Of a stretch of 64,000 bases of DNA, positions 37,560-55,345 are shown in pieces (the stretch's first letter is position 1; each line of letters begins with the position of its first letter). The DNA comes from Xanthomonas arboricola (GTDB lineage Bacteria > Pseudomonadota > Gammaproteobacteria > Xanthomonadales > Xanthomonadaceae). Both the position numbers and the translations under genes were made by a program. The notes below the pieces were generated by a model that made no database searches, had not been told where the DNA came from, and worked only from the letters and a program-made list of their open reading frames with translations. The stretch covers positions 992,001 through 1,056,000 of the forward strand of contig NZ_MIGY01000001.1 in NCBI RefSeq assembly GCF_002940665.1, written 5' to 3'.

Positions 37560-37662
37560 GCGCTGACGGCTTTGCGCCGTCGTCGGTCCCGCGCGCGTGT
37601 TGCGTGGGCTTTCCTAGCGATGCATGCGTCGGCCGTCAGTGGCCGGCCGCAGTGGAGATGTC

Positions 37663-39474
37663 ATGTCTTTCGATCCTGCTTCTTTCGATCCCTCTTCCAG
37701 CGGCGGCCTGAGTCGACGCCGCTTCGTGCAAGGCCTCGCCCTGGGCGGTATTGCGGCCGCCGGCGGCCTGTGGCGCGGCGATGTACGTGCCGCCCCCTCG
37801 GCCACACCCGTGTTGCGCGGCACCAGTCAGGTGCTGCAGATCGGCCGCATGCCGGTCAACCTCACCGGGCGCACGCGCAGCGCCATCACCGTCAATCACA
37901 GCGTGCCGGCCCCCACGCTGCGCTGGCGCGAGGGCGACACGGTCAACGTGCGCGTGCGCAATACGCTGGCCGACCAACCCAGCTCGGTGCACTGGCACGG
38001 CCTGTTGCTGCCCGCCAACATGGATGGCGTGCCGGGGATGAGTTTCGACGGCATCGCGCCGGGCCAGGAGTATCACTACCGCTTTGCGCTGCGCCAGTCC
38101 GGCACTTACTGGTATCACAGCCATTCGATGTTTCAGGAACAGGCCGGCCTGTACGGCGCGATCGTCATCGACCCGCTGACACCGCCGCCGTATCGGCACG
38201 ATCGCGAGCACGTGGTACTGCTCTCGGACTGGACCGACCTGGACCCGGCCGCGCTGTTCCGGCGGCTCAAGCAGATGCCCAGTCACGACAATTACGCGCA
38301 GCGCACGGTAGGCGATTTCCTGCGCGACGCGCGCGACGACGGCTTGCGCGCAACGCTGGCCGATCGCGGCATGTGGGGCCGCATGCGCATGACCCCGACC
38401 GACCTGTCCGACGTCAACGCCAATACCTACACCTACCTGCTCAACGGCGTCGCCCCGGCGGGCAACTGGACCGGCCTGTTCAAGCCCGGCGAGAAGGTAC
38501 TGCTACGTTTCATCAACGGCTCGTCGATGACCTACTTCGACATCCGCGTTCCCGGCCTGCGCATGACCGTGGTGGCCGCCGACGGCCAGTACGTGCATCC
38601 GGTCAGCGTGGACGAGTTGCGCATTGCTGCAGCCGAAACCTTCGACGTGCTTGTCGAGCCCATTGGCCAGGACGCGTTTACCGTGTTCGCGCAGGACATG
38701 GGCCGCACCGGATTCGCCTGCGGCACGCTGGCGGTGCGGCATGGACTGCAGGCACCGATTCCTGCGCTGGATCCGCGCGCCATCCTCACCATGCAGGACA
38801 TGGGGCACGGCGATGGCATGGCGCATGCAGGTCACGCCATGCACGGCGCCGACACGCCGCACAGCGACCCACACGCGGCACACGCGATGGCAATGCCGAT
38901 GCCGGCCGCGCAGACGCACGGGCATGCAAGCGGCGATGCGCAGCGCAAGAGACCGCACCACCCTGCCAGCGAAGACGGCAACCCGCTGATCGACATGCGC
39001 AGCAATGCCACGGTTCCACGCCTGGACGACCCCGGGGTTGGCCTGCGCGACAATGGCCGCCGGGTGCTGCGCTACGCCGACCTGCGCAGCCTTTTCGAGG
39101 ATCCGGATGGACGCGCGCCTGGGCGCGAGATCGAACTGCATCTGACCGGACATATGGAAAAATTCGCCTGGTCGTTCGACGGCATCGCCTTCGCCTCGGC
39201 AGAGCCACTGCAGCTGCAGTACGGCGAGCGTCTGCGCATCGTGCTGGTCAACGACACGATGATGCAGCACCCCATCCATCTGCACGGCATGTGGAGCGAT
39301 CTGGAAGACGCCGACGGCAATTTCCAGGTGCGCAAGCACACCATCGACATGCCCCCCGGCACGCGCCGCAGCTATCGCGTCCGCGCCGATGCGCTGGGCC
39401 GCTGGGCCTACCACTGCCATCTGCTGTACCACATGGAAGCGGGCATGATGCGCGAAGTGCGGGTGGAGGCATGA
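37663..39474 (+). CDS. copA: Multicopper oxidase CopA (copper resistance)
   Basis: The 603-residue periplasmic enzyme has a Tat signal (SRRRFVQGLALGG). Copper-ligand motifs are HWHGLLLP, YHSHSMFQEQ, HPIHLHGMW and YHCHLLYHMEAGM, giving type 1 and trinuclear centres. A Met/His-rich stretch at about 380-440 (DMGHGDGMAHAGHAMHG) probably binds extra copper. It oxidises Cu(I) and sequesters copper. ATG 37663 has GGAG five bases upstream; an earlier in-frame ATG at 37624 lacks a site. It overlaps copB by ATGA. Confidence 0.94.
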   Translation: MSFDPASFDPSSSGGLSRRRFVQGLALGGIAAAGGLWRGDVRAAPSATPVLRGTSQVLQIGRMPVNLTGRTRSAITVNHSVPAPTLRWREGDTVNVRVRNTLADQPSSVHWHGLLLPANMDGVPGMSFDGIAPGQEYHYRFALRQSGTYWYHSHSMFQEQAGLYGAIVIDPLTPPPYRHDREHVVLLSDWTDLDPAALFRRLKQMPSHDNYAQRTVGDFLRDARDDGLRATLADRGMWGRMRMTPTDLSDVNANTYTYLLNGVAPAGNWTGLFKPGEKVLLRFINGSSMTYFDIRVPGLRMTVVAADGQYVHPVSVDELRIAAAETFDVLVEPIGQDAFTVFAQDMGRTGFACGTLAVRHGLQAPIPALDPRAILTMQDMGHGDGMAHAGHAMHGADTPHSDPHAAHAMAMPMPAAQTHGHASGDAQRKRPHHPASEDGNPLIDMRSNATVPRLDDPGVGLRDNGRRVLRYADLRSLFEDPDGRAPGREIELHLTGHMEKFAWSFDGIAFASAEPLQLQYGERLRIVLVNDTMMQHPIHLHGMWSDLEDADGNFQVRKHTIDMPPGTRRSYRVRADALGRWAYHCHLLYHMEAGMMREVRVEA

Positions 39475-40766
39475 GTACGCCACGGACGCAATACAGGGCG
39501 CTGCTCGCCCTGCTGCTGAGCGCATCGGCAACTGCACAGGAGCATCAGCATGCGGCGGTGGATTCATCCGCGCATGTCGATGGCGCACATGCAATGCAGA
39601 TGACCAACCAGGCAACGGCTGCCCAGCCACAGACATCCAGCGCGACGGCGGCGTCGCCACCATCCACACAACAGAGCGCTGAGGCGATGCAGATGGATCA
39701 TGCGCAGATGCAGCACGCGCAGCACTCCAGCAGTGCATCGGCATCGGCAAACGATGCTGACAGCACGCCTGAGCAACGCCCGGTAGAGGCCGACGTTTCA
39801 GCATCGCCGGCATCGATGCACCACACAGGCATGCAGCACGCCGCACACCAGACCTCTGCAAATCCACAACTGGACCACACCCGGCAATCGCAGACAGACA
39901 GCGACCACGGCGCAATGGAGCACGCATCGATGGATCATGCCTCGATGCATCATGGGCAAGCCCAGCATGGGGCGATGGATCACATCGGCATGGAACACGC
40001 GCCGCACACCGAAGCGGCGACGCAGACGCCGGCATTGGCCATCGCCGGCGCACTGCCCCGCACGCCGATCCCCGAGCCCACTGCCGAGGAGATCGCTGCG
40101 GCATTCGCACCCTTGCAGCACCATGCGATGCACACACCAGGCATCAATCACTACGTATTACTCGATCGCCTGGAAGCCTTCGACACCACGCGCGGCAGCG
40201 GTCACGACTGGGAAGCGCGCGCCTGGATCGGTGGCGACATCGACCGGCTCTGGCTGCGCAGCGAAGGCGAGCGGCAGGACGGGCGCACGCAGGCCGCATC
40301 GATGGAAGCGTTCTATGGTCGTGCCATCTCGCCATGGTGGGACCTGCTGGTCGGTGCACGTCAGGACATCGGAGCGGGCGAGCATCGCAGCTGGGCCGCC
40401 TTCGGCGTGCAGGGCCTGGCGCCCTACAAGTTCGAGACCGAAGCCACGCTCTATGTCGGCAGCGGCAGCCGCGCGGCACTGCGCCTGGAAGGCGAGTACG
40501 AAGTACTGCTCACCAACCGGCTGATCCTGCAGCCGCGCGTGGAAGCCGACATCGCCCTCACCGACGATGACCGGCGCGGCGTCGGCAGCGGGCTGGAGCA
40601 GGTCCAGGTCGGCCTGCGGCTGCGCTACGAAATCACCCGCCGCTTCGCGCCCTACATCGGCTGGGTGCACAGCCGCAATTTCGGCGACACCGCACGCCGC
40701 GCCGCGATCGAAGAGGAACCGGCACGCGACAGCCGGTTCGTTGCCGGCGTGCGCGTCTGGTTCTGA
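39471..40766 (+). CDS. copB: Outer-membrane copper-resistance protein CopB
   Basis: This 431-residue protein starts with a signal peptide (MSTPRTQYRALLALLLSASA). About 180 residues then form a low-complexity region full of Met and His (MDHASMHHGQAQHGAMDHI and similar), likely a copper sponge. The C-terminal 230 residues form the CopB beta-barrel domain, ending SRFVAGVRVWF with a terminal Phe. The start overlaps the copA stop. The Met/His region is made of short imperfect repeats and is expected to vary in length between strains. Confidence 0.92.
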   Translation: MSTPRTQYRALLALLLSASATAQEHQHAAVDSSAHVDGAHAMQMTNQATAAQPQTSSATAASPPSTQQSAEAMQMDHAQMQHAQHSSSASASANDADSTPEQRPVEADVSASPASMHHTGMQHAAHQTSANPQLDHTRQSQTDSDHGAMEHASMDHASMHHGQAQHGAMDHIGMEHAPHTEAATQTPALAIAGALPRTPIPEPTAEEIAAAFAPLQHHAMHTPGINHYVLLDRLEAFDTTRGSGHDWEARAWIGGDIDRLWLRSEGERQDGRTQAASMEAFYGRAISPWWDLLVGARQDIGAGEHRSWAAFGVQGLAPYKFETEATLYVGSGSRAALRLEGEYEVLLTNRLILQPRVEADIALTDDDRRGVGSGLEQVQVGLRLRYEITRRFAPYIGWVHSRNFGDTARRAAIEEEPARDSRFVAGVRVWF

Positions 40767-40978
40767 GACAGCCGCTGTGCGCATGGGCCTGACCGTTCGG
40801 ATCCAGGTCCATGCCGCGACCTTGAACAGCGCAGTTCGTGCTGTCGCGCGCGATCGGTCACAGAGCGACGCCAGACCGCCGACGCGCACGGTGCAGACAT
40901 GCCGACAACCATTGCCCCGCTAACATCTGCGTCCGACGCAGCGTGACCTGCCCCCCACATTCCACCGAGGAGACCGTA

Positions 40979-41503
40979 ATGCCTTTGTCCAATCTGCAAC
41001 ACGTCCCCGGCGCCAGCGCCGCGCCTGCCGACACCGCCGGCTTCGTGTTCAACCACACCATGCTGCGCGTCAAGGATGCGCAGCGTTCGCTGGATTTCTA
41101 CACGCGCGTGCTGGGATTCCGCCTGCTGGACGCGCGCAATTTTCCCGATGCGCAATTCAGCCTGTACTTCCTGGCCCTGCTGCCCGACGGCACCGCGATC
41201 CCCGACGACGATGCCGCGCGTCGGCTGTGGATGGCCGGCATCCCCGGCGTGCTCGAACTCACCCACAACCACGGCACCGAAACCCAGGACGGCCCGGTCT
41301 ACCACGACGGCAACAGCGAGCCGCGCGGCTTTGGCCACATCTGCATCTCGGTGCCCGACATCCACGCCGCCTGCGCGCGCTTCGACTCCCTAAAAGTGCC
41401 GTACCAGAAACGCCTGGAAGACGGCCGCATGAAGCACCTGGCCTTTATCAAGGACCCGGACGGCTACTGGGTGGAGATCATTTCCAATACGCCGTTGGCG
41501 TGA
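40979..41503 (+). CDS. gloA: Lactoylglutathione lyase (glyoxalase I)
   Basis: The 174-residue vicinal-oxygen-chelate enzyme has metal ligands in NHTMLRVKD (His), LELTHNHGTE (Glu), GHICISVPD (His) and YWVEII (Glu). It converts the methylglyoxal-glutathione hemithioacetal to S-lactoylglutathione. The length and N-terminal extension match the longer, human-like class. GGAG lies about ten bases before ATG 40979. A strong terminator follows directly. Confidence 0.94.
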   Translation: MPLSNLQHVPGASAAPADTAGFVFNHTMLRVKDAQRSLDFYTRVLGFRLLDARNFPDAQFSLYFLALLPDGTAIPDDDAARRLWMAGIPGVLELTHNHGTETQDGPVYHDGNSEPRGFGHICISVPDIHAACARFDSLKVPYQKRLEDGRMKHLAFIKDPDGYWVEIISNTPLA

Positions 41504-42722: not shown

Positions 42723-44552
<1,830 letters not shown>

Positions 44553-44588
44553 AGGACAACCCTTGAGGACGAAGCCGCACATTTTAGC

Positions 44589-44663
44589 GTGTCCGCTCTT
44601 GTCCGCTGCATGACCGTGCCCGGACAACCTGTCCGCACCGGTGTCCGCGGACACTGCGGACAC
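44589..44663 (+). promoter_or_regulatory. Array of TGTCCGC sites (enhancer-like)
   Basis: GTGTCCGC occurs at 44589-44596, TGTCCGC again at 44600-44606, CGGACA-ACC-TGTCCG at 44621-44635, a perfect palindrome GTGTCCGCGGACAC at 44641-44654, and TGCGGACAC at 44655-44663. The array lies 47-121 bases before the -24 element of the exporter promoter, where NtrC-family activators bind. Confidence 0.6.
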
Positions 44664-44707
44664 TGGCCGCCAGCCCACAAAATCGATTGCTTTCAATGGC
44701 TTGAAGA

Positions 44708-44726
44708 TTGGCACATGTCCTGCTTT
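44708..44726 (+). promoter_or_regulatory. Sigma-54 promoter of the exporter operon
   Basis: TTGGCACATGTCCTGCTTT has GG at 44710-44711 and GC at 44722-44723, the exact GG-N10-GC spacing. It matches TGGCACR-N4-TTGC except for one base. Transcription would start near 44735, 22 bases before ATG 44757. Confidence 0.7.
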
Positions 44727-44756
44727 ATCGCAGTGACGCCACCGAGCCAGCCGACC

Positions 44757-46028
44757 ATGATTCGCGATACCTCTGCCCAGGACCAGGTTCTCCGTACACC
44801 CGCCCAGCGCGCGCCCTGGCGCCGTTGGCTATGGCCCGGCATCGCCGCGGTCGCGGTACTGGCCGGTATTGGCTGGGCGATCACCGCATGGAGCGCCGGC
44901 AGCCGCTCGTTCGATGCCAGCCGGGTGCGTATCGCCACGGTCAGCCAGGGCGACCTGGTCCGCGACATCGCCGCCGACGGCCGCGTCATCGCCGCCAACA
45001 GCCCGGTGCTGTATGCCATCTCGGCCGGCACCGTGACGCTGAGCGTGGTGGCCGGCGACGTGGTCAAGCAGGGCCAGGAGCTGGCCCGTATCGACAGCCC
45101 GGAGCTGCGCAGCAAGCTGGCCCAGGAGCAGGCCACCCTGGCCGGGCTGGAAGCCGAGTCCAGCCGCGCCGCTTTGGATGCCACCCTGGCCCGCGCCACG
45201 GCCAGCAAGCTCACCGACCAGGCCAAGATCGACAAGCAGGCCGCCGCGCGCGACCTGGAACGCTACCAGCGCGGCTACGATGGCGGCGCGGTGCCGCAGG
45301 TGGAACTGGCCAAGGCCCAGGACACCCTGAAGAAAACCGACATCGACCTGCAGCACGCCAAACGGGATGCGTCTCTGAAGAGCCAGGGTGCAGACCTGGA
45401 TTCGCGCAACAAGCGCCTGCTCGCCGACCGCCAGCGCGCGGTGGTGGCCGAGGTGCAGCGCCAGGTCGATGCGCTCACGCTGCTGTCGCCGTTCGATGGC
45501 CAGGTCGGCCAGGTGCAGGCCGTGCAGCACACTCAGGTCGCGGCGAACGCGCCGATCCTGGGTGTGGTGGACCTGTCCAAGTTCGAAGTCGAGATCAAGG
45601 TGCCGGAAAGTTTTGCGCGCGATCTGGCGATCGGCATGCCGGCGCAGCTCACCAGCGGCAGCGGCGAGCCGTTCCCGGGCGCCATCTCGGCGGTGTCGCC
45701 GGAAGTGGTCAATGGCGAAGTCACCGCGCGCATCCGCTTTGCCGACAAGCAGCCGCCGGGCCTGCGCCAGAGCCAGCGCATGAGCGCACGCGTGGTGATG
45801 GACACGCGCCGCAACGTGCTCAAGGTCGAACGCGGCCCGTTCGTCGAACAGTCCGGCGGCAGCTATGCCTATGTGATGGATGGCAACACCGCGGTGCGCC
45901 GTCCGGTGCGCATGGGTGTCAGCAGCCTGGGCGAGGTGCAGGTGCTGTCCGGGCTGCAGGTCGGCGACCGCGTGGTGGTCTCCGGCGCAGACAACTTCGG
46001 GGATGCACCGCGCGTCACCGTTCACTAA
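44757..46028 (+). CDS. Membrane fusion protein of an ABC exporter
   Basis: The 423-residue protein has one N-terminal membrane span ([20 protein letters not shown]). Biotinyl-lipoyl-like halves flank a long coiled coil (about 95-210), with beta-barrel and membrane-proximal domains after it, as in MacA/HlyD. It links an inner-membrane exporter to an outer-membrane channel. ATG 44757 is chosen because the earlier ATG at 44715 lies inside the sigma-54 promoter. It heads a four-gene operon with an ATPase and two FtsX-type permeases. No outer-membrane channel gene is present. Confidence 0.87.
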
Positions 46029-46130
46029 AGCGGCCAGCACACCTGCTGCGCAGCCGTCAGGCTGCTTGCCACGGCTTGTCAGCCACTCTCAATCTCTTTC
46101 GCACACACCTTCTTCGTAAAGGAATCGGCA

Positions 46131-46850
<720 letters not shown>

Positions 46851-46862
46851 GAGGCACACCCC

Positions 46863-48164
46863 ATGTTCGGCTATTACTTCAATCTTGCCTTACGCAGCTT
46901 CCGCCGCAACAAGGTACTCACCGCGCTGATGGTGCTGGCCATCGCGCTCGGCATCGGCGCCAGCATGACCACGCTGACGGTGTTCTATGTGCTGTCCGGC
47001 GATCCGATCCCGCAGAAGAGCGACCGCTTGTTTAGCGTCCTGGTGGATCCATACCCCAAGGCCGGATACCAGCCGGGAGAAGAGCCTGGCGACCAGGTCA
47101 CTCGCTTCGATGCCGAAGCGCTGCTGCGTGAAAAGCGTGCAAAACGCCAGGCGCTGATGACCGGCGGAAGAGTGGCGATCGAGCCCAGCAAGAATGGCAT
47201 GACCGCCTTCAAATCCGAAGTACGCTTCACGTCGGCAGATTTCTTCCCGATGTTCGAAACGCCTTTCCTGTATGGCCAAGGCTGGTCGGCCAGTAGTGAC
47301 GAGGCGCACGAACGCGTTGCGGTGATCACCCAGGAACTCAACGACAAGCTGTTCGACGGCAGCAATAGCGTTGGCCGCGACCTGCGCATGGACAAGAACA
47401 CCTTCCGCATCGTTGGCGTTCTTGCTCACTGGAAAGCCAATCCGCGCTTTTACGATCTCAGCGATAGCTACGGCTCGAACGAACAGGCGTATCTGCCGTT
47501 TTCCGTGGCGATAGATCTGAAAATGGACCATTACGGCGGCACGAATTGCTACGGCAAGAGCGCCAGCAGTGATCAAACCGCGCTCAATGCGCCCTGCACC
47601 TGGATGCAGTACTGGGTGGAGCTCGATAGCCCAGCGCAGGCTGGCGACTACAAAGCCTACCTGGATAACTACTCCGATCAGCAGCGCGCTGCAGGGCGTT
47701 TCGAACGTCCGAACAATACGCGTCTGCGTAACGTGATGGAGTGGCTGGACTACAAGGAAGTGGTTCCTGGCGACGTTCGCCTGCAGCTGTGGCTGGCGAT
47801 GGGCTTCCTGCTGGTGTGCCTGCTCAATACCGTGGGTCTGTTGCTCGCCAAGTTCCTGCGCCGCAGTGGAGAGATCGGTGTGCGTCGTGCCCTGGGCGCC
47901 TCACGCGGTGCCATCTTTGCGCAGTGCCTGGTCGAAGCCGGAACCGTCGGACTTGCCGGCGGCATTGCAGGGCTTGGGCTGGCATGGTTGGGCTTGTGGG
48001 TGGTGCGCCAACAACCTGTCGACTACGCCAAGCTTGCGCATCTGGATCCAAAGATGCTGTTGCTCACCTTCGCACTGGCGCTGGTTGCCAGTCTATTGGC
48101 CGGCTTGCTGCCGTCCTGGCGCGCCATCCAGGTCGCGCCCGCACTGCAGCTCAAAGCATCCTGA
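46863..48164 (+). CDS. FtsX-type permease 1 of the exporter
   Basis: This 433-residue permease has one N-terminal span (LTALMVLAIALGIGASMTTL), a large periplasmic domain of about 260 residues, and three C-terminal spans with the GEIGVRRALGASRGAIFAQ coupling segment that contacts the ATPase. It begins 12 bases after the ATPase gene. It pairs with the second permease to make the heterodimeric membrane part of a MacB-like transporter. Confidence 0.9.
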   Translation: MFGYYFNLALRSFRRNKVLTALMVLAIALGIGASMTTLTVFYVLSGDPIPQKSDRLFSVLVDPYPKAGYQPGEEPGDQVTRFDAEALLREKRAKRQALMTGGRVAIEPSKNGMTAFKSEVRFTSADFFPMFETPFLYGQGWSASSDEAHERVAVITQELNDKLFDGSNSVGRDLRMDKNTFRIVGVLAHWKANPRFYDLSDSYGSNEQAYLPFSVAIDLKMDHYGGTNCYGKSASSDQTALNAPCTWMQYWVELDSPAQAGDYKAYLDNYSDQQRAAGRFERPNNTRLRNVMEWLDYKEVVPGDVRLQLWLAMGFLLVCLLNTVGLLLAKFLRRSGEIGVRRALGASRGAIFAQCLVEAGTVGLAGGIAGLGLAWLGLWVVRQQPVDYAKLAHLDPKMLLLTFALALVASLLAGLLPSWRAIQVAPALQLKAS

Positions 48165-48218
48165 CTCCCACACCCGCCGCGCTGCGGCGGGCACGGCCTC
48201 TTATCGAAGGTACCGCCC

Positions 48219-49451
48219 ATGGACATCCGCCCCATCATTTCCACGTTGCGCCGTCACAAGACCGCAGCCGCATTGATCGTGCTCGAGATCGCACTGGCCT
48301 GCGCGATCATCTGCAATGCCATGTTTCTGATCGGCAACCGCATTGAAACGCTGCAACAGTCCAGTGGCATCGCTGAGTCGGAACTGGTCAGCGTCCAACT
48401 GGGGGGCATCGGTACCCAGGTCAATGCGCAAGCACGTACGCGCGAGGACCTGGCTGCGCTGCGAAGCCTGCCCGGTGTCCGTGGCGCGATCGTCATCAAC
48501 CAGGTGCCCTTCGTCCATTACTCATGGAATAGCGGCATCTCCCTGACCAGGGAGCAGGAGCGCCAGACGCTCAATGCCGCACAATTCATGTCGGGCGAAA
48601 GCACCGTGGGCACGCTTGGCCTGCAACTGGTAGCCGGCAGGGATTTCGCTGCAAGCGAATTCATTGATATGGAGCAAGCGAACAACGACAGATTTCTCGA
48701 CAGCCGAGGGATCTCGGTGATCATCGCGCAGCCCATGGCCGACAAGCTGTTCCCGAACCGCAATGCGTTGGGCAAGACAATTTACGCGGGTGAAACGGCA
48801 TTACACATCATCGGCATCGTGCAGACACTGGCACGCCCGAACAACAACAATTTCAATGGCGTCAATCAAAGCAACTACTCGATGTTGCTGCCCATACGCA
48901 TCGATTACACCTCAGGCCAGTACATCATCCGTGTCACCGACCAAGCGCGTCGCGCAGAGGTGTTGCAGTCCGCAGTCGCCGCATTGATGAAGTTGGACAA
49001 CGGCCGACTGGTGCTGAAGCAGCAGACCTACAGCGAGATCCGCGACGAATACTTCCAGAACGACCGGGCGATGGTCTGGTTACTTGGTGCAGTCTGTATC
49101 GCGCTGCTGATCGTCACCGCGCTGGGCATCGTTGGCCTCGCCAGCTTCTGGGTGCAGCAACGCACCAAACAGATCGGCATTCGTCGCGCCCTGGGCGCAA
49201 CGCGCGGCCAGATCCTGCGCTACTTCCAGATCGAGAATTTTCTGCTGGCCTCGGTCGGCATCGTGCTCGGCATGTTGCTGGCGTACTCGATCAATGTCTG
49301 GTTGATGGCCCGCTACGAGTTGCCGCGCCTGCCGGTGCTGTATCTGCCGATCGGCGCACTGCTGCTCTGGGCGCTGGGCCAGATCGCCGTGTACTGGCCC
49401 GCACGGCGCGCCGCGCTGGTACCACCGGCGGTGGCCACGCGCAGCGCGTGA
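48219..49451 (+). CDS. FtsX-type permease 2 of the exporter
   Basis: The 410-residue permease has the same topology as its upstream neighbour: one N-terminal span, a periplasmic domain and three C-terminal spans, with KQIGIRRALGATRGQILRYF as the coupling helix. Between the two permease genes lies a hairpin CCCGCCGC-GCT-GCGGCGGG (48173-48191) that may adjust their ratio. Just after the stop, TGCTGCACGTC (49458-49468) and GACGTGCAGCA (49490-49500) form 11-base inverted arms. Confidence 0.9.
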   Translation: MDIRPIISTLRRHKTAAALIVLEIALACAIICNAMFLIGNRIETLQQSSGIAESELVSVQLGGIGTQVNAQARTREDLAALRSLPGVRGAIVINQVPFVHYSWNSGISLTREQERQTLNAAQFMSGESTVGTLGLQLVAGRDFAASEFIDMEQANNDRFLDSRGISVIIAQPMADKLFPNRNALGKTIYAGETALHIIGIVQTLARPNNNNFNGVNQSNYSMLLPIRIDYTSGQYIIRVTDQARRAEVLQSAVAALMKLDNGRLVLKQQTYSEIRDEYFQNDRAMVWLLGAVCIALLIVTALGIVGLASFWVQQRTKQIGIRRALGATRGQILRYFQIENFLLASVGIVLGMLLAYSINVWLMARYELPRLPVLYLPIGALLLWALGQIAVYWPARRAALVPPAVATRSA

Positions 49452-49854
49452 TGCGCATGCTGCACGTCAGCGGTCGCTGTCGACCCGCCGACGTGCAGCA
49501 CACAGCGATGTTGCGCAGATCCTGCACGATCGCAGCACGCTGAAATTAACGAGGACATCGGTCGTTTGTGAAACGCTGATTGCGCCACGATCGCCTTAAC
49601 CAAGGCGCCTGCGGCGCGGATTCCTGGCCGCCTGATATCTGGCGCTGCGCCCGGACCTGCGCTTGAGGTCGGCATCGACGCAACCTGCTGCCAACCTCAT
49701 TGCACTGCTCGGACGATCCCCACATTGCCGGAATCTGCCCCGTCTGGCAGGAGATTGTCAGGCGCATGCACTCTCCTTTGCCGGCACAGTTCCGCCACGC
49801 GTCGAATCCTGTTCTGATAGTCGTTCCCTCCCGCGCCTTCCACCGAGCAATGCG
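49452..49854. other. Gap between exporter and regulator genes
   Basis: These 403 bases have no credible gene. The inverted arms at 49458-49500 may end or protect the exporter transcript. The regulator must have its promoter further right or be reached by read-through. I saw no GG-N10-GC element and no TGTCCGC copies here. Confidence 0.3.
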
Positions 49855-51194
<1,340 letters not shown>

Positions 51195-51198
<4 letters not shown>

Positions 51199-52559
51199 TC
51201 CCCGACATGTGGCAACGCTCCTTCACGTTCTCGCTGTTTTTGCGGCTGTTGCCGGTGCTGGCGCTGGCCGCCGCGCTGCCCTGGTTCATGGCGTACTGGA
51301 TGGACCGCGGCTGGCAAGTGGCCGCAGTGTCGGTGGTGGTGGTGCTGTCGGCGATGTGGTTCAGCCTCAGCCGCGCCACCGCGCCGATGCGCTCGCTGTT
51401 CCGCGCCCTGGCCGGCACCACCAGCAGCTACCGCGATGGCGAATACAACTTCGGCGTGTACTGGCGCGGTAGCGACGAACTGGCGCAACTGGTGCAGGCG
51501 CATGCGGAACTGGGCGAGGTGCTGCGCGCGCAACGGCGCAACCTGGTGCAGCGCGAACTGATGCTCGACACCATGCTGCAGAACACTCCAGTGGCGATGC
51601 TGCTGGTGGTGGCCGGTGGCGATGGCGTGCGCCGCATCAGTTTCTCCAACAACGCCGCACGCAAGCTGTTGTACGACGGCCGCAAGCTCGAAGGCCAGCA
51701 CCTGGACGACCTGCTCGCGCGCATGCCCGGCGAACTGCGCGATGCGCTGGCGCGCGGCGGCGATTGCCTGTTTGCGGTCCGCGAGGACGGCGATGACGAA
51801 GACGACGAGCAGATCTATCACCTGTCACGCCGCAGTTTCCATCTCAACGGACGCGGTCACGAGTTGCTGCTGATTCGCACCCTGACTACCGAACTGCGGC
51901 GCCAGGAAGTGCAGACCTGGAAAAAGGTCATCCGCGTGATCAGCCATGAATTGAACAACTCGCTCGCGCCGATCGCGTCGCTGGCGCACTCCGGCGCCGA
52001 GTTGCTGCGTCGCGAACGCACCGACCGGCTCGGCACGGTGTTCGAGACCATCGAAGAACGCGCACGTCATCTGGAAGGCTTCATCCGCGGCTACGCCCGC
52101 TTTGCCAAGTTGCCGCAGCCGCAGTTGCAGACCATCGAATGGGCACCGTTCCTGGAGCGTTTGCGGCAGCAGATTCCGTTTCAGCTGCAGGGCGCACTGA
52201 GCGATGTCTCCAGCCGCATCGATGCCGCGCAGATCGAGCAGGCGCTGCTCAACCTGCTCAAGAACGCGCACGAAGCCTGCAGCGAAGCGCAGCCGCCCAA
52301 CAGCGAGGTCGCCGTGCGCGTCACGCGCGTGCCGCAATGGCTGCGGATCGAAGTGCTGGACCGCGGCAACGGCATGAACGAGGCCGTGCTGCATAACGCG
52401 CTGATGCCGTTCTACTCGACCAAGCGCAACGGCACCGGGCTCGGGCTTGCGCTCACCCGCGAGATCGCCGAAGCGCACGGCGGGCGCATCTCGCTGCATA
52501 ACCGCGAGCACGGCGGGTTGTGCGTCACTTTGCTGCTGCCGGCTGCGGCGGCCGGCTAG
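51195..52559 (+). CDS. NtrY-like membrane histidine kinase
   Basis: The 454-residue kinase has two N-terminal spans (about 10-33 and 43-57) with almost no periplasmic loop. A PAS-like region follows at about 125-225, then the phospho-His251 in VISHELNNSLAPIASL and an ATPase domain with LNLLKNAHEA and GTGLGLALTREIAEAHGG. The HELNNSLAPI form is typical of NtrY relatives. The short sensor loop suggests that it senses within the membrane or through the exporter, as BceS-like kinases do. The start overlaps the regulator stop; ATG 51207 is an alternative. Confidence 0.9.
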
Positions 52560-52754
52560 CTCGCAAGCCCCTGGCGCGCGTTTCTCGGCCATTCCTATCG
52601 CGATACCGCTGGCATGCGATCCACCCTCGAACCGACCGGGACGATCGCCAGCACCACTGAATTGCCACGCGTCGCCAGGCTGCCCAGGCCATTGCCTCGA
52701 CCAGCATGCCAGCGTGGCCGGCATCGTCTCGCGATCATTCGCCGATCGCAGCGC

Positions 52755-53835: not shown

Positions 53836-55200
53836 CTACTTCTTGACCGGGCGTTCCCAGCCTTCGACCACGGTCTGACGCGCACGCGTGACGCTGAGTT
53901 GCCCGGCAGGCGCATCGCGGGTGATCACCGAGCCCGCGCCGATGATGGCCATGGCGCCGATCTCGATCGGTGCCACCAGTGCGCTGTTGGAACCGACGAA
54001 GGCGCCATCGCCGATGGTGGTCTGCGACTTGTTTACCCCATCGTAGTTGCAGGTGATGGTGCCGGCGCCGATGTTGACCTTGCTGCCGATCACCGCATCG
54101 CCCAGGTAGGTCAGATGGTTGGCCTTGCTGCCTACGCCCATCGTGACCTTCTTGGTCTCGACGAAGTTGCCGATATACACGCCATCGGCCAGCACGGTGC
54201 CAGGACGCAGCCGCGCGAACGGGCCAATCTGCACCGCCCCTTCGGTCGCCACGCCGTCCAGATCGCAATGGGCGCGGACCTGCGTGCCGGCACCGAGCGT
54301 CACATCGCGCAAGCGCACGAAAGGACCGATCACCACGCCATCGCCCAGCGTCACCTCGCCTTCCAGGATCACGTCGATATCCAGCTGCACGTCGCTGCCC
54401 ACCGTCACGGTGCCGCGCTGCTCCACGCGCGCCGGATCGGCCATGCGCACGCCCTGCAGGCAGAGCGCACGGGCGGCCCGCAGCTGCCAGGCGCGTTCCA
54501 GCTGCGCCAGTTGCCAGGGGTCGTTGGCGCCTTCCACATCCTGCGCGTCGGCCACATGCACCATGTCGGCCGGGGTGAAATCGGCGGCGGCGCTGGCAAA
54601 TACGTCGGTGAGATAGAACTCGCCCTGCGCATTTTCGTTGGACAGACCGGCCAGCCAGCGGCGTAGCGCGGTGGACTCGGCAGTGAGGATGCCGGTGTTG
54701 ATGGTGCGGATGCGGCGCTGCTCGTCGTTGGCATCCTTCTGCTCGACGATCGCGGCGACCTTGCCTTCGGCATCGCGCAGGATGCGGCCGTAACCGGTGG
54801 GATCGGGCACATCGGCCACCAGCACCGCCATGCGCCCGGGGGCATGCAGCAGCTGCAGCAGGTCCCGGGACTGGATCAGCGGCACATCGCCGTACAGCAC
54901 CAGCACGGTGGCCGCATCCGGAATCGCATCCATCGCCTGCTGCACCGCATGCCCGGTGCCCAGTTGCCGACGCTGCTCGGCCCAGTGCAGATCGCCCTGC
55001 GCGGCAAACGCCGCCTGCACCTGCGCGCCACCGTGCCCGTGCACCATATGGATCGCCGCCGGTTGCAGCTGCCGCGCCGTGGCGATCACATGTGCCAGCA
55101 TCGGCTGGCCCGCCAGCGGCTGCAGCACCTTGGGCAGGGACGAGCGCATGCGCTTGCCCTCGCCCGCGGCCAGGATCACGACGTGCAGGGGCAGGGTCAT
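53836..55200 (-). CDS. glmU: Bifunctional GlmU (UDP-GlcNAc synthesis)
   Basis: The 454-residue enzyme has an N-terminal uridylyltransferase domain ([18 protein letters not shown], then [10 protein letters not shown]) and a C-terminal left-handed beta-helix acetyltransferase with [20 protein letters not shown]. It acetylates glucosamine-1-phosphate and adds UMP to make UDP-GlcNAc for peptidoglycan and lipid A. ATG 55200 gives the conserved [13 protein letters not shown] start. It is on the same strand as glmS and the atp operon but separated from glmS by the exporter block. Confidence 0.96.
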
Positions 55201-55345
55201 CGAAGCGTTCCAGAACGTGGGAGTACCAAATTCTAGTCGCTGTCCCGGCAGTGCGTCGTGTCCTGCCTGCAGCATGCGCGGCGATGACACTTTTCAAGCG
55301 CCGCTGCCGTTAGCATGAGCGCCCTTCCACGATGACCCGGCCTGC

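Follow-up and report, generated by a model that had tools for sequence, protein, structure and literature searches.

A candidate sigma-54-switched MacAB-type exporter with an exchangeable permease pair in Xanthomonas arboricola and its relatives

An operon of the plant-associated bacterium Xanthomonas arboricola, situated in a window of 64,000 nucleotides (the whole stretch of DNA that was analysed), looks by its gene content like a MacAB-type exporter placed under an NtrC-type two-component system. Taken as a whole, it is best explained as a dedicated tripartite exporter of MacAB type that is switched by two-component control and sigma-54 and carries an exchangeable permease pair, a reading to which we assign a probability of about 70 %. 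Comparison of sequences shows the conservation of promoter and enhancer, the co-occurrence of site and regulator, the absence of the site in a relative lacking rpoN, the exchange of the permease cassette and its variable copy number. The original prediction of a circuit made of kinase, activator, sigma-54 promoter and exporter appears well supported by the comparison of genomes, more strongly than it had been stated. In the proposed mechanism, an envelope signal would cause the kinase to phosphorylate the NtrC-type regulator, which would then bind the TGTCCGCGGACA enhancer. With the DNA looped, probably with the help of IHF, the regulator would open sigma-54 RNA polymerase at the -24/-12 element, a promoter type in rare use, and turn the operon on. 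The product would be a tripartite ABC exporter consisting of one adaptor, one ATPase and a presumably heterodimeric permease pair that works in the export direction, with an outer-membrane channel supplied by a gene elsewhere in the genome. The permease pair would set the recognition and may be replaced by recombination or multiplied, with motor, adaptor and switch held constant. Most likely, the exporter would serve to clear the envelope of antimicrobial peptides or toxic compounds of a similar kind.

Genes of the operon and their surroundings

The coordinates of the genes and of the candidate regulatory sites are given in Table 1.

Table 1. Genes and candidate regulatory sites of the exporter operon (positions in the window)
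Feature	Position	Strand	Size	Remarks
glmS	42723-44552	-		divergent neighbour outside the operon; borders the intergenic region that holds the enhancer
Outlying enhancer half-sites TGTCCGC	44590-44596, 44600-44606, 44630-44636			read from the sequence
Outlying enhancer half-site CCGGACA	44620-44626			read from the sequence
Putative core enhancer (UAS), palindrome GTGTCCGCGGACAC	44641-44654			about 60 bp upstream of the -24 element
Putative core enhancer (UAS), second part GCGGACAC	44656-44663			
IHF-like box TCAATGGCTTG	44693-44703	+		between enhancer and promoter
Putative sigma-54 -24/-12 promoter element TTGGCACATGTCCTGCTT	44708-44725	+		by pattern conservation upstream of the adaptor
Periplasmic adaptor	44757-46028	+	423 aa	HlyD/RND_mfp family, MacA-like
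ABC ATPase	46131-46850	+	239 aa	LolD/MacB/DarD type; ABC_tran 2e-32
Permease 1	46863-48164	+	433 aa	MacB_PCD and FtsX; first half of the cassette
Permease 2	48219-49451	+	410 aa	MacB_PCD and FtsX; second half of the cassette
NtrC-family response regulator	49855-51198	+	447 aa	receiver, sigma-54 AAA+ with GAYTGA, Fis-type HTH
Sensor kinase	51195-52559	+	454 aa	H-box HELNNSL

The adaptor matched HlyD_D23 (1.3e-14) and RND_mfp (2.5e-38), over cut-off, and had MacA as its best solved relative in the PDB (7.5e-18); it stayed under the cut-off of the MacA equivalog model. The adaptor protein was present in 215 of the 247 family genomes sampled, in 49 of 54 genera. For the ATPase, DarD was the best NCBIfam model (7.1e-79) among the best 25 of 191 models, under its cut-off. 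Both permeases surpassed the Pfam cut-offs for MacB_PCD and FtsX, and the nearest solved relative of permease 1 by sequence was MacB (PDB, 1.1e-20). Among the specific models listed (MacA, MacB, Dar, ADOP), none had its cut-off reached by adaptor, ATPase or permeases. The exporter is not MacB proper, because its ATPase is encoded by a separate gene. The operon contains no outer-membrane gene, and several OEP genes (21 domain matches) were located elsewhere in the genome; a relative from another family of the order (G498) carries an outer-membrane efflux gene inside its operon. The spacer that separates permease 2 from the regulator (49452-49854) was examined for remnants of permeases, an idea that was rejected: only short and weak matches occurred, the best with an E value of 2e-4 and on the opposite strand.

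Gene order and domains agreed with the original prediction, in which the exporter is followed by a sigma-54 activator with GAYTGA and a kinase. GAYTGA was conserved in 132 of 135 distinct regulator sequences, the remaining ones being GAFAGV (G034), GAYTSA (L218) and a stretch that ends before the motif (L185). Hydropathy and alignment placed two N-terminal membrane helices in the kinase at about residues 10-35 and 39-58. The loop between them has few residues and an outer sensing domain is absent, which confirmed the description of a kinase almost without a periplasmic loop.

Several observations concern the surroundings of the operon. A GlmU-like ORF, read from its translation, lies beyond the operon (53836-55290, minus strand of the window), so that the module is situated between a glmU-like gene and glmS. 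Upstream of glmS (37572-41503), copper-resistance-like ORFs rich in methionine and histidine and a glyoxalase I-like ORF were recognised by reading. A DUF885 gene lay between permeases and regulator in two loci (L057:5994-7823 and L250:6310-8109, Pfam match), and ORFs similar to it were seen by reading in two others (L065, L087); an alpha/beta hydrolase-like ORF occupied the place between the last permease and the regulator in L248:1420-2625 (G487), likewise by reading. In a Xanthomonas genome (L246, G175) the adaptor gene was broken (237-1219), with the -24/-12 element present and glmS matching over nearly its full length. A record titled Bacillus subtilis strain SK7B5 (L182) held a Stenotrophomonas-like operon and is probably mislabelled or contaminated. 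In a locus of X. phaseoli (L143) several frames of the operon seem interrupted; over the full length, its ATPase was 63 % identical to that of the window, its regulator 62 % and its kinase 43 %, local matches of regulator and kinase reaching 96 %.

Conservation of promoter, enhancer and regulator

The putative -24/-12 element has GG at 44710-44711 and GC at 44722-44723 with ten bases between them, and 33 bases separate GC from the adaptor ATG (44757). The sigma-54 consensus reads TGGCACG-N4-TTGCW or, in a shorter form, TGGCAC-N5-TTGC. TTGGCACATGTCCTGCTT deviates from the former in two of 12 positions and from the latter in one, and the single mismatch originally ascribed to the GG-N10-GC element holds against the shorter consensus. 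In the window alone, TGGCACG-N4-TTGCW was matched 16 times when up to two mismatches were allowed, compared to 19 expected, which is not above chance. It is the conservation across genomes, not the statistics of the window, that lifts TTGGCACATGTCCTGCTT above chance. The weights behind the sigma-54 bit scores were approximate, therefore the main counts were based on the plain pattern TGGCA[CT]-N6-TGC. All 81 of 81 genomes had this pattern in the 300 bp that precede the adaptor gene, namely the window and 80 same-family relatives that are mutually related and come mostly from the top of an identity-ranked list (214 other genomes with a match) rather than from a random draw. Its median position was 54 bases before the adaptor start. 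The control regions upstream of ATPase, permease 1 and permease 2 contained it in two, two and one of 80 cases, the reverse strand in one of 81, and 20 dinucleotide shuffles had a mean of 0.5 and a maximum of 3. Among the open positions, the first was G (73) or A (8), and the other five took all four bases. Exact TTGGCAC-N6-TGCTTT sites occurred three times in the genome including the one at the adaptor, with none for the reversed control; the other two (L262, L263) are candidates for further sigma-54 promoters.

Repeated half-sites TGTCCGC and GCGGACA surround the palindrome GTGTCCGCGGACAC and span 44590-44663. Upstream of the adaptor a mean of 6.3 half-sites GTCCG/CGGAC per 300 bp was observed in 81 genomes, in comparison to 0.5-1.2 upstream of the other operon genes and 1.3 in shuffles. 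Of the 81 genomes, 80 had a palindromic GTCCN..NGGAC ahead of the adaptor; the controls yielded 0-4 of 72-80 and the shuffles a mean of 5.9 with a maximum of 11. Upstream activator sites appear to be present in the form of this conserved palindrome, as putative binding sites. The exact 12-mer TGTCCGCGGACA occurred a single time in the genome, upstream of the adaptor, and a search for a wider regulon with up to one mismatch revealed 18 places including its own versus 17 for the reversed control. Because the exact sequence is unique and the near-matches are about as many as in the reversed control, the regulator looks dedicated to the adaptor promoter. The consensus for IHF is WATCAANNNNTTR. An IHF-like box, TCAAN4TTR, was contained in 57 of 81 upstream segments and located 15-16 bases before TGG in 56 of those 57 (shuffles: mean 0.86, maximum 3); it was missing in 24 of the 81 family loci, the enhancer pattern in one. 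Enhancer and IHF-like box would be parts of the promoter beyond the element of the original prediction.

The co-occurrence of site and regulator was followed in 20 distant loci picked by hand, two being divergent members of the family itself and 18 belonging to further families of the order or class; eight of the 18 fall in one family, and as the loci are related the counts overstate their independence. A -24/-12 site of at least 14 bits, 48-89 bases upstream of the adaptor, was present in 15 of the 20 loci. All 15 had a regulator ortholog in the genome, 13 of them linked and two unlinked. Ten linked regulators were located within the first stretch, three after the stretch had been extended (L208, L210, L214). 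In the genomes G475 and G430 the regulator ortholog, with 68-69 % identity, was encoded elsewhere, with a similar kinase nearby. The five loci without a site (L219, L221, L222, L223, L225) had best scores of 5-10 bits in 350 bp, and their genomes, of which G437 is 89 % complete, contained no regulator ortholog at E 1e-100; L223 and L222 each had one match above 14 bits away from the adaptor, as chance may give. A 15/5 split would arise by chance once in 15504 if the loci were independent, a figure that for related loci is only a guide. Three loci (L217, L218, L227) had site and regulator and no enhancer by the pattern used, L218 being the one with GAYTSA. The arrangement occurs in the family and beyond it in further families of the order; a single case came from a genome that shares no more than the class. 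Together with the sites in 81 of 81 family genomes, the co-occurrence supports the claim of a sigma-54 promoter before the exporter that is tied to the adjoining regulator. The circuit had also been called closed. This part stood less firmly: no site was present in the 300 bp upstream of the regulator (0/72), hence the circuit, if closed, would close by read-through of the operon.

Two rpoN genes are present in this genome, and at least one copy in 244 of the 247 family genomes. The three exceptions are G034, which is 99 % complete, and G014 and G080 with 82 and 86 %. Two different sigma-54 domain models detected no rpoN in G034, which means absence from an assembly in 20 contigs, not proof of loss. 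The one strong sigma-54-activator domain match of this genome is the regulator of the operon. G034 retains the operon, the kinase and the enhancer palindrome; the 17 kb read contained no -24/-12 element of at least 13 bits, and TTGACA stands before the adaptor, as in a sigma-70 -35 box. In the regulator GAYTGA has become GAFAGV, with the receiver aspartate region and the DNA-reading helix kept. The changes in loop and site, in this one lineage, run in the direction predicted by the sigma-54 reading. G034 may be seen as a natural experiment, in which the absence of rpoN goes with the absence of the site and an altered sigma-54-contacting loop.

Exchange and copy number of the permease pair

Strains were compared by the labels of their records. 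Between X. arboricola NL_P126 and the window, the identity was 98 % for the adaptor, 99 % for the ATPase, 96 % for the regulator and 94 % for the kinase, but only 64 and 60 % for the permeases; at four-fold sites the permeases agreed in 48 and 61 %, the flanks in 80-91 %. Within permease 1, for region borders chosen by the analyst, the first 45 residues were identical (45/45), the periplasmic part agreed in 131 of 251 and the last helices in 103 of 133 residues. The periplasmic domain was the most variable part of the permease pair. X. arboricola pv. guizotiae and X. cissicola share 97 % of the four-fold sites in both permease genes, and in the flanks 77 % (adaptor), 89 % (ATPase), 78 % (regulator) and 68 % (kinase). 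Compared to another X. arboricola, the four-fold sites of pv. guizotiae agreed in 88-92 % for the flanks and in 56 and 63 % for the permeases. Since the permeases agree between species where the flanks diverge, and the reverse holds within X. arboricola, the pair bears the signature of a recombined cassette swapped between species. Not every strain differs: in the nearest one, X. arboricola pv. juglandis, the permeases were 97 and 93 % identical to those of the window.

Of the 81 loci (window and 80 named relatives), 66 had a complete operon as far as the regulator, the other 15 being cut or without a readable regulator. Counting permease frames of at least 330 codons, one pair was present in 50 of the complete loci, two pairs in nine, three pairs in four and unpaired extra genes in three. 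Larger arrays were observed in another family of the order, with six (G448), seven (G487) and 12 pairs (G498), flanked by one ATPase and one regulator. In G498, 23 of 24 permease genes had an open frame of 380 codons or more, and the remaining gene ran across the edge of two stretches; G448 had 11 open permease frames and one across an edge, G487 had 14. A single ATPase and a single adaptor can be accompanied by as many as 12 permease pairs. In a tree of 116 permease-1 proteins, the classes largely followed the position in the operon and mixed Xanthomonas and Stenotrophomonas. Old paralogs and exchange probably both contribute to the diversity of the permeases.

We advance only tentatively a more far-reaching view, according to which one sigma-54-switched motor serves an open-ended series of exchangeable permease pairs, gained from other species by recombination or kept in arrays of at most 12, and the operon would act as an adaptive locus of chemical defence. 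Each pair would be the recognition module for a different toxic compound, all of them under one shared alarm. If the pairs were such interchangeable modules, a comparison of strains in which little but the cassette differs would reveal the compounds that a MacB-type exporter recognises, and the cassettes would hint at the compounds met in the habitat of a strain.

Signal, role and known systems

The same circuit could serve an exporter that secretes a product of the cell itself, a peptide, lipid or lipoprotein signal or toxin. We regard this as unlikely, even if MacAB pumps export virulence factors too (PMC5985334) and the ATPase is nearest to Dar and Lol types. The intergenic gaps read, at most eight stretches and not a systematic set, showed no evident precursor or biosynthetic gene; seen in those operon gaps were a DUF885 gene, a hydrolase-like ORF and an outer-membrane gene. 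The locus at the side of glmS with its foreign permease pairs better fits an outward recognition of changing compounds.

A second alternative, already raised in the original prediction, concerns the origin of the signal: the exporter may be the sensor, with the permease pair detecting the substrate and signalling to the kinase through the membrane in a Bce-like manner. Kinases of Bce modules have a short loop, their regulators are of the OmpR type and the modules are not known to have an adaptor. The almost missing periplasmic loop of the kinase is in line with this idea, as is the cooperation of BceAB transporters with a two-component system (PMC5985334). The membrane part of the kinase had partial correlations with the two permeases of 0.30 and 0.21 in 45 single-pair loci and of 0.31 and 0.27 in 17 Xanthomonas loci; the values for the remaining kinase sequence lay between -0.01 and 0.14. 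Strain pairs pointed in both directions. In L151 and L133 the membrane part was 78 % identical, the rest of the kinase 99 % and permease 1 64 %. Conversely, L131 and L137, both labelled X. hortorum, share 97 % in the membrane part with permeases of 68 and 62 %, and L128 and L138 share 82 % in the membrane part with permeases of 98-99 %. With a weak signal and contradictory strain pairs, the idea that the membrane part of the kinase co-evolves with the permeases was not accepted. Furthermore, the two-component genes of G430 and G475 are located away from the exporter, and the regulator, a member of the NtrC family, differs from the OmpR-type regulators of Bce systems. An exporter acting as sensor is considered improbable.

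We give quite a small chance to permeases that act mechanically on the cell wall or envelope, as FtsX-like proteins, with the link to glmS reflecting cell-wall metabolism. The permeases do have an FtsX domain, and the divergent glmS, which shares the enhancer region in the family, was near the adaptor in 89 of 91 family rows (one row being this genome again). Against a mechanical function stand the MacA-like adaptor and the outer-membrane efflux gene in the operon of one relative; moreover, among the 20 distant loci glmS occurred only in the two family loci, about 2 kb away, and none was detected close to the operon in any of the 18 stretches from other families. Very unlikely, finally, is a chance match at -24/-12 with transcription of the operon by sigma-70: such matches are at chance level within the window and its statistics alone would fit, but the conservation in 81 of 81 genomes, the co-occurrence with the regulator and the absence together with rpoN and GAYTGA argue against it, and the region 44500-52700 held a single sigma-70-like match, inside permease 2, a number equal to that in shuffles.

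The two-component, sigma-54-switched tripartite exporter remains the preferred reading, and it can be set beside described systems. MacAB-TolC, of the type VII ABC superfamily, shares with it a MacA-like adaptor and permeases with the MacB periplasmic core and FtsX domain; the separate ATPase gene, the unlike permease pair, the tandem multiplication and the presumed sigma-54 two-component control are differences. The MacAB pumps of E. coli and Salmonella are controlled by PhoPQ (PMC5985334). Bce modules also combine a MacB-related permease with a two-component system, but BceB has ten helices in one chain (PMC5985334), unlike the permeases found here, which are two proteins (433 and 410 aa) that follow the MacB_PCD-FtsX plan. 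As its permeases are not of the BceB plan, the operon is not a Bce module. The darobactin exporter, represented by the DarB, DarC and DarD models, resembles it in having a separate ATPase, an adaptor and a MacB-type permease, with the ATPase closest to DarD; all scores, however, were under the Dar cut-offs. Permease 1 and permease 2 match the first and the second half of ADOP (TIGR03434), respectively, yet they are two genes and score far under its cut-off. SmaCDEF of the relative Stenotrophomonas maltophilia (Smlt1651-4) is likewise an ABC efflux pump, denoted by four gene letters and as many locus tags (PMC11356428), and its raised expression has been reported (PMC12189255, PMC11356428). The SmaCDEF qPCR primers (PMC11356428) had an exact match in none of the loci compared, a set in which K279a is absent and in which strain-specific primers can miss. 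SmaCDEF is probably another locus.

In the open-access literature, covered mostly by titles and the beginnings of abstracts, no paper was recognised as treating the locus, and passages of PMC3162934, PMC6085468, PMC8277102, PMC8772754 and PMC10434189 contained nothing on it. RNA-seq data of X. campestris rpoN mutants exist, with the operon not named in the main-text passages available (PMC7280030). The original statement that no system of this make-up had been described in Xanthomonas stands insofar as no paper on the locus was recognised; it has to be restricted, since the arrangement is not specific to Xanthomonas and a link between sigma-54 and FtsX-like permeases was predicted in 2025 (PMC12316311). 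That survey in PLoS One predicts sigma-54 control of FtsX-like ABC permeases (COG0577), calls it the first evidence, and reports an enrichment under sigma-54 promoters in gamma-Proteobacteria, Opitutia and Bacteroidia (PMC12316311). As far as its available text goes, it is a bulk prediction without such a locus with regulator, enhancer or permease cassette (PMC12316311), whereas here one circuit was followed across genomes with and without regulator and rpoN. The operon would provide a specific, testable member for a link so far only predicted in bulk.
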